Shown here piece by piece: positions 51,403-51,717 of a stretch of 64,000 nt of DNA. This stretch comes from Halostella pelagica (GTDB lineage: Archaea; Halobacteriota; Halobacteria; Halobacteriales; Natronoarchaeaceae). The notes under the pieces are model-generated. The model made no database searches. It was not told the origin of the DNA and was given only the letters and a program-made list of their open reading frames with translations. Each line of letters starts with the position of its first letter. The stretch's first letter is position 1. The stretch is taken from assembly GCA_005954745.1 (NCBI GenBank), contig CP040678.1:868001-932000 (forward strand), given 5' to 3'. Both the position numbers and the translations under genes were made by a program.

Positions 51403-51717
51403 CTTCGCCCATCGTCGTCGCTTCCAGTTCTCAAGGACTTGCTACCGGCCGGTCAGTGCTCGCTGATTCCCGCTGTCGGTCGGCGTAGACCACAGGTTTA
51501 TCTTCGAAGGCGGGACCAGACGGCCCGTGACGTGACCGTCGTCGCGAGGCGATCAGCGGTCGTGCGGTGCCGTCGCCTCGCGGAGCGTGGCACCGCCTGT
51601 TCGCCACCTCAGTACTATCGACTGTAACTGCGCGCTCGTCGTCACCGTCCAGACTACGGTCAGGGACTGACGGCAGACGGTAAAGATTCATGGTCGTCAG
51701 TCGCTAAGGACCGGTGA
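51403..51717. other. 315-base intergenic region between tfb and nreA
   Basis: No protein-like ORF is visible. A TATA-like GGTTTATCTT (51496-51505) is followed after about 40 bases by two long complementary stems (see the ncRNA candidate). The nreA ATG at 51718 has the AT-rich GTAAAGATTCATGG about 30-40 bases upstream. Confidence 0.55.
51541..51598 (+). ncRNA. Candidate structured RNA with interleaved stems (H-type pseudoknot-like)
   Basis: Stem A pairs CGCGAGGCGA (51543-51552) with TCGCCTCGCG (51573-51582), 10 perfect pairs. Stem B pairs GCGGTGCC (51564-51571) with GGCACCGC (51589-51596), 8 perfect pairs. The order A5-B5-A3-B3 makes the stems mutually threaded; the intervening loops are 11, 1 and 6 nucleotides. 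Either a pseudoknot or two competing hairpins is implied. A TATA-like element about 36-45 bases upstream supports plus-strand transcription. Transcription itself is not shown, and the palindromic arms would fold from either strand. Confidence 0.4.

Follow-up and report, generated by a model that had tools for sequence, protein, structure and literature searches.

A multicopy haloarchaeal pseudoknot RNA family with a conserved two-codon reading frame at its predicted 5' end

Background

The 64,000-nucleotide stretch of Halostella pelagica DNA analysed here (the window) contains, between the genes tfb and nreA, two GC-rich stems with interleaved arms, which the original prediction saw as a possible H-type pseudoknot or two-state switch, belonging perhaps to a small RNA or to the 5' leader of nreA. 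The locus raises the question of whether the stems are part of an RNA structure maintained by evolution, whether such an RNA serves nreA or stands alone, and what it might do.

Structure of the intergenic element

The predicted geometry was found as described. Stem A pairs positions 51543-51552 (CGCGAGGCGA) with 51573-51582 (TCGCCTCGCG) in 10 perfect base pairs, and stem B pairs 51564-51571 (GCGGTGCC) with 51589-51596 (GGCACCGC) in 8, the arms following the order A-B-A'-B' with loops of 11, 1 and 6 nucleotides; the TATA-like sequence noted upstream is TTTAT at 51497-51501, and the element lies outside any plausible gene. Interleaved perfect stems of at least 10 and at least 8 bp within 60 nucleotides arose in none of 1000 dinucleotide shuffles of the 315-nucleotide intergenic region, and stems of at least 8 and at least 8 bp likewise in 0 of 1000. 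The nested minimum-energy fold of a 221-nucleotide region is a modest gain over shuffles (z = -2.1) and does not contain the pseudoknot, so that the case for a pseudoknot rests on covariation in relatives. The parts of the element are as follows.

51497..51501, plus strand: TATA box TTTAT, assigned as the RNA gene's own promoter from its in-register conservation in the family and from a distance to the start codon equal to that of leaderless protein genes
51511..51518, plus strand: promoter box CGNGRCCA, here CGGGACCA, spanning roughly -16 to -9 relative to the predicted transcription start
51527..51535, plus strand: two-codon micro-ORF GTG-ACG-TGA at nucleotide 1 of the predicted transcript, with RTG and a stop codon family-wide
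51536..51542, plus strand: 7-nucleotide spacer from stop codon to pseudoknot
51543..51552, plus strand: 5' arm of stem A, covarying
51553..51563, plus strand: loop 1 with the conserved motif GCGR..G.G (pattern CGR..GNGYG in 184 of 257 members)
51564..51571, plus strand: 5' arm of stem B, covarying, though stem B lies outside the search models
51573..51582, plus strand: 3' arm of stem A, covarying
51583..51588, plus strand: loop 3, which crosses stem A and has 6 nucleotides here
51589..51596, plus strand: 3' arm of stem B, covarying
51597..51605, plus strand: 3' tail CTGTTCGCC, nearly invariant and single-stranded (exact CTGTTCGCC in 105 of 257 members)

Distribution of the RNA family

A DNA search with the intergenic region identified a second copy, 73% identical, elsewhere on the same chromosome, and several more in the genus. 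A first covariance model, built from seven aligned copies with stem A only, gave 10 to 16 matches in each of nine genomes of the window's taxonomic family; a second, built from 41 copies and also carrying stem A only, matched sequences in 73 of the 117 genomes searched within the order and, in a draw across the class, in 117 of 145, where single weak matches, chiefly those of family f7, are doubtful. Copies were present in most of the haloarchaeal genera sampled with the model. When 197 genomes were drawn from the phylum, all 20 that had a match came from the window's own order, and no family member was found outside the Halobacteria in any of the covariance-model draws, this one included.

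Copy numbers obtained by deeper scoring were 58 in Halomarina halobia, 33, 31 and 26 in the genomes G084, G114 and G103, 24 in Halorarius halobius and 3 in Haloferax sulfurifontis. H. pelagica itself has nine full copies, all on its main chromosome (a 3.2-Mb contig). Two weaker model matches in this genome were excluded as members, the one at C1:1206636 because it opens a long ORF and the one at C1:779062 because it is without the micro-ORF and most of the knot. In family f7 most genomes, among them G030, G051 and G058, have no more than one or two matches, all weak (E about 1e-5 to 1e-3); these could be degenerate orthologues, or protein genes that carry the RNA's promoter box. An exception within f7 is G189, with six matches and a best E of 6e-18.

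A pattern scan that fixed only the TATA box, part of the promoter box and the tail (TTTAT, GRCCA and CGCCTGTTCGC), leaving stems and micro-ORF unconstrained, had matches in Haloferax, Haloarcula, Natronomonas, Halorubrum, Halolamina, Halosimplex, Halobellus and other genera. About 100 of these loci were fetched and part of them confirmed, and the conservation of TTTAT, GRCCA and CGCCTGTTCGC among members is thus biased upward. Bacterial matches of the scan, unconfirmed by the covariance model, were attributed to chance. Viral carriage was also rejected: the sole pattern match of this kind (L211) was unconfirmed by the model, and a second scan of viral contigs gave none.

The covariance models of Rfam 15 matched the element neither in the window nor in any of six relatives. 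The pseudoknot RNA, with a predicted length of about 80 nucleotides, is a widespread, strongly covarying, multicopy family of a well-studied archaeal class, so far undescribed in Rfam and in the open-licence literature searched. The original prediction, which was right in its pseudoknot RNA, had missed the multicopy family, the micro-ORF of start, one codon and stop, the box between TATA and start, and the 3' tail.

Conservation of the pseudoknot

Covariation in relatives had been proposed as the check on the structure, and compensatory changes keep both stems in every set examined. Cells with double changes numbered 13, 114, 286 and 277 in sets of 7, 41, 91 and 87 distinct sequences, compared with shuffled means of 4.8, 24, 66 and 73, in counts that kinship among the sequences inflates; the observed number was reached in 0 of 500 shuffles, and sliding the partner by 1 to 3 columns destroyed the signal. 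Since the models contain stem A only, the alignments are unfitted to stem B, the pairs of which are kept in 94-99% of cells with frequent exchange of GC and AU. In view of the controls with slid partners and of the range of families represented, a chance origin of the covariation is untenable on this comparison, and because both stems covary strongly, the H-type pseudoknot is judged to be evolutionarily real.

Taken singly, 171 of 173 members can form both stems; with the stems conserved together in this way, the two-state switch of the original prediction is unsupported. The medians over members are 10 bp for stem A, 7 bp for stem B, 12 nucleotides for loop 1, 2 for the junction and 8 for loop 3. 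The concern that a 6-nucleotide loop is short for crossing a stem of 10 bp is thus a mild one, stem A being about one helical turn and the crossing loop usually longer than in the window. In G084 and G103 the copies that precede nreA are longer and divergent; together with that of G004, these nreA-linked copies (L250, L252 and L253) have low scores, and their loop 3 appears enlarged.

The conserved unpaired parts of the RNA are loop 1 and the 3' tail. Sequence conservation stops about one base past CUGUUCGCC, and no run of T follows the tail. Pairing of the CUGUUCGCC tail with 23S rRNA was considered and rejected, its Watson-Crick complement being absent from the 23S rRNA of this genome; the closest candidates depend on G-U pairs and are unconvincing.

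Promoter and predicted transcription start

A BRE-like CGAA stands ahead of TTTAT, and the box CGNGRCCA, 14 to 21 nucleotides past the first T of the TATA box, is conserved at 83-98% at its single positions (257 members, part of the loci having been selected with GRCCA). Counted from that T, an ATG or GTG lies 30-31 nucleotides downstream in 244 of 252 members. For ordinary protein genes at these loci the distance from TTTAW to ATG likewise has its peak at 30, and a TATA-to-start spacing of about 30 nucleotides is that of leaderless transcripts. From this agreement with leaderless protein genes we infer the transcription start: the RNA should begin with its RUG. In Haloferax volcanii, leaderless transcripts make up 72% of the coding ones (PMC4983044).

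Genomic context of the copies

The genes beside each copy were called with a simple codon-usage script. In 169 (70%) of the 241 copies flanked by a called gene on either side, the downstream gene is convergent, its end lying at a median distance of 29 nucleotides, and in 72 it is on the same strand; the copies adjoin many different genes. The predominance of convergent neighbours indicates that the element is an independent small RNA gene and not a leader of nreA. The original prediction had left both open, and it is the small RNA that is upheld, by gene orientation and by the diversity of neighbours, while the 5' leader of nreA is rejected by orientation over the 241 copies. In the window nreA does lie on the same strand, 113 nucleotides downstream, and the distance from stop codon to knot is that of recoding signals, so a cis-acting role, as leader or attenuator of the downstream gene or as a signal for readthrough or frameshifting, has something to recommend it at this one locus; it is nevertheless very improbable for a family of which most copies face a convergent gene and in which the downstream frame is not conserved.

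The window's copy has orthologues between tfb and nreA in four congeners and in Halomarina halobia. Such conservation of position across genera, seen also beside other neighbours such as uvrC, bears on whether the family might be mobile or repetitive DNA with no function as RNA. The many dispersed copies would fit this explanation, as would the Halomarina copies sampled, whose nearest relative was always in the same genome. The compensatory changes in both stems already contradict it, the spacing from promoter to start is fixed, the copies of H. pelagica are chromosomal in nine cases out of nine, and no viral copy was confirmed, which leaves it a negligible likelihood.

The two-codon micro-ORF

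An RTG followed by a stop codon after zero to two codons is present in 252 of 257 distinct members, and in 249 exactly one codon intervenes; in one member the stop comes a codon later, still in frame, and in two the start abuts the stop. GTG is the start in 204 cases (81%) and ATG in 48, while the stop is TGA in 224, TAA in 18 and TAG in 10, and never replaced by TGG. Comparison of the members thus indicates that it is codon logic that is conserved, rather than a fixed sequence motif. In L286, L288 and L334 ATC stands in place of ATG or GTG, with the codon, the stop and the pseudoknot otherwise intact, and two further members of the 257 have no micro-ORF. A guide RNA of the H/ACA or C/D type, an idea suggested by the succession GUGA...UGA, was set aside by argument alone: the intervening bases are variable, the switching is like that of start and stop codons, and the pseudoknot is foreign to both families.

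Codon 2 (51530-51532 in the window) varies among copies and among orthologues, encoding Thr, Arg, Ile, Leu, Ser, Pro and others with a bias towards the first four. It begins with G in only 6 of 249 members, unlike the second codons of genes: of the predicted genes, about 40% encode Ala, Asp, Glu, Gly or Val at this position. GUG is rare (6-9%) among the leaderless mRNAs of H. volcanii and weakly expressed there (PMC4983044), so that, by analogy, initiation at these mostly GTG-led micro-ORFs may be inefficient.

The strictness of this layout weighs on another explanation, a structured regulatory RNA that acts in trans and contacts its partner, a protein or an mRNA, by way of loop 1 and the tail, with the micro-ORF serving only to let a terminating ribosome protect the 5' end or to guard against unfolding of the knot by ribosomes. 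That loop 1 and the tail are the conserved unpaired parts, and that the copies are independent genes, would suit such an RNA, for which, however, omission of the RUG would suffice to avoid translation; RUG is kept in 98% of members, and we consider this explanation unlikely.

Phage lambda bar minigenes are bacterial two-codon minigenes. Like them, mg2 of axe-txe (PMC8708949) resembles the archaeal family in that a start codon, a single sense codon and a stop form a conserved functional unit, and that layout, with codon-like exchange of GTG with ATG and of TGA with TAA and TAG, is the one found in the 249 members. The resemblance (PMC8708949), together with the biased codon 2, could mean that the RNA is a toxic or regulatory minigene in which drop-off of dipeptidyl-tRNA or slow termination sequesters particular tRNAs, release factor or ribosomes and the knot does no more than enhance the pause. 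Codon 2 is not the same across copies and orthologues, so that the RNA would target no one tRNA, and this account would not explain why knot and 3' tail are so strongly conserved; we regard this as a decidedly unlikely account. Whereas mg2 lies within the leader of a longer mRNA (PMC8708949), the archaeal family has a predicted leaderless 5' end, is an independent RNA with a pseudoknot and has many copies per genome.

The distance from the stop codon to stem A is 6 to 8 nucleotides in 148 of 169 members, within the range of 5-9 nucleotides past the A-site codon that characterizes recoding signals. This spacing places the pseudoknot at the mRNA entrance of a ribosome that has the codon in its A site. 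In the frameshift signal of IBV and the readthrough signal of MuLV, H-type pseudoknots whose first stem spans roughly one helical turn lie 6-8 nucleotides past the A-site codon, and the family is like them in all three respects. Unlike them, its upstream frame has only two codons, and no stop position downstream is held in common by the members in any of the three frames. A readthrough or frameshift product was accordingly rejected as the purpose of the arrangement.

Proposed function

The reading that we hold to be somewhat better than an even bet is that each copy specifies a mimic of a leaderless mRNA, with its own promoter, micro-ORF, pseudoknot and tail, which meets the ribosome at the stop codon. 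From the conserved layout we infer translation of the micro-ORF, docking of the ribosome and a regulatory effect, in the following way. The BRE and TATA elements would direct synthesis of a leaderless RNA of about 80 nucleotides consisting of RUG-NNN-stop, a spacer of 6-8 nucleotides, the H-type pseudoknot (about 10 and about 7 bp) and the conserved 3' tail. Its 5' end, mimicking a minimal leaderless mRNA, would recruit a ribosome at nucleotide 1; after formation of one peptide bond, giving a dipeptide, the ribosome would arrive at the stop codon with the pseudoknot lying at its mRNA entry site. If termination were slow there, or the ribosome dropped off, the RNA could hold, tune or report on ribosomes or, alternatively, shield its own 5' end. 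The RNAs of this family probably catch ribosomes, to judge from their conserved parts, and such a trap, if real, would tune translation or the supply of ribosomes.

A pseudoknot at recoding distance and a conserved frame of two codons that starts on the predicted first nucleotide are not known to occur together elsewhere. Bacterial tmRNA is a small RNA that acts on ribosomes and carries both pseudoknots and a very short frame. The family shares with it the combination of pseudoknot and very short frame in a small RNA; unlike tmRNA, it is far smaller, multicopy and archaeal, and neither a tRNA-like domain nor a tag frame was noticed in it. It is a tentative proposal, to which we give a little less than even chances, that these RNAs constitute a new archaeal class of self-contained ribosome traps, mimicking leaderless mRNAs from their own promoters in up to about 58 copies.

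Small RNAs associated with ribosomes have been described in H. volcanii, among them rancRNA_s194, IG1.7 and Hts4 (PMC6104027) and sRNA_61 and others (PMC12482152). They are like the present family in being small, intergenic and haloarchaeal, and some occur with ribosomes while their protein product went undetected; RNAs of comparable size with ribosome occupancy thus exist in that species (PMC6104027, PMC12482152). The published text consulted describes no family, pseudoknot or micro-ORF for them, and the comparison with the present family is one of descriptions only. The layout proposed here offers a testable answer as to why haloarchaeal small RNAs with ribosome occupancy have no protein product, and the family provides a natural system for the study of leaderless initiation and of termination in archaea.

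Neighbouring genes and shared promoters

Some copies lie beside genes of replication and repair, including nreA and the genes for the small subunit of DNA polymerase D and for an RFC subunit (L047, L070, L071 and L039; the numbers are small), and in the H. pelagica genome one copy is one gene away from rfcL. A recurrent neighbour in several families, identified by eye, is uvrC (L043, L044, L064, L164, L171, L184, L314, L334 and L339). A gene for a CPxCG-like small protein with no Pfam match adjoins copies in the window's genus (L041, L049 and L069) and also in Haloferax (e.g. L128, L139 and L181), where the RNA has the opposite orientation. In Haloferax relatives one copy is flanked by such a gene on one side and by a HAD hydrolase gene on the other.

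The succession of TATA box, SGRCCA and RTG at +1 also precedes a few leaderless protein genes, at C1:301818, C1:1206683 and C1:2880308 of the H. pelagica genome (L354, L358 and L363) and at L269. The product of one protein gene with the RNA-type promoter resembles, by eye, a Cas4-type nuclease, and another such gene is conserved in G006. The promoter arrangement common to the RNA genes and these few protein genes may represent a shared regulon.
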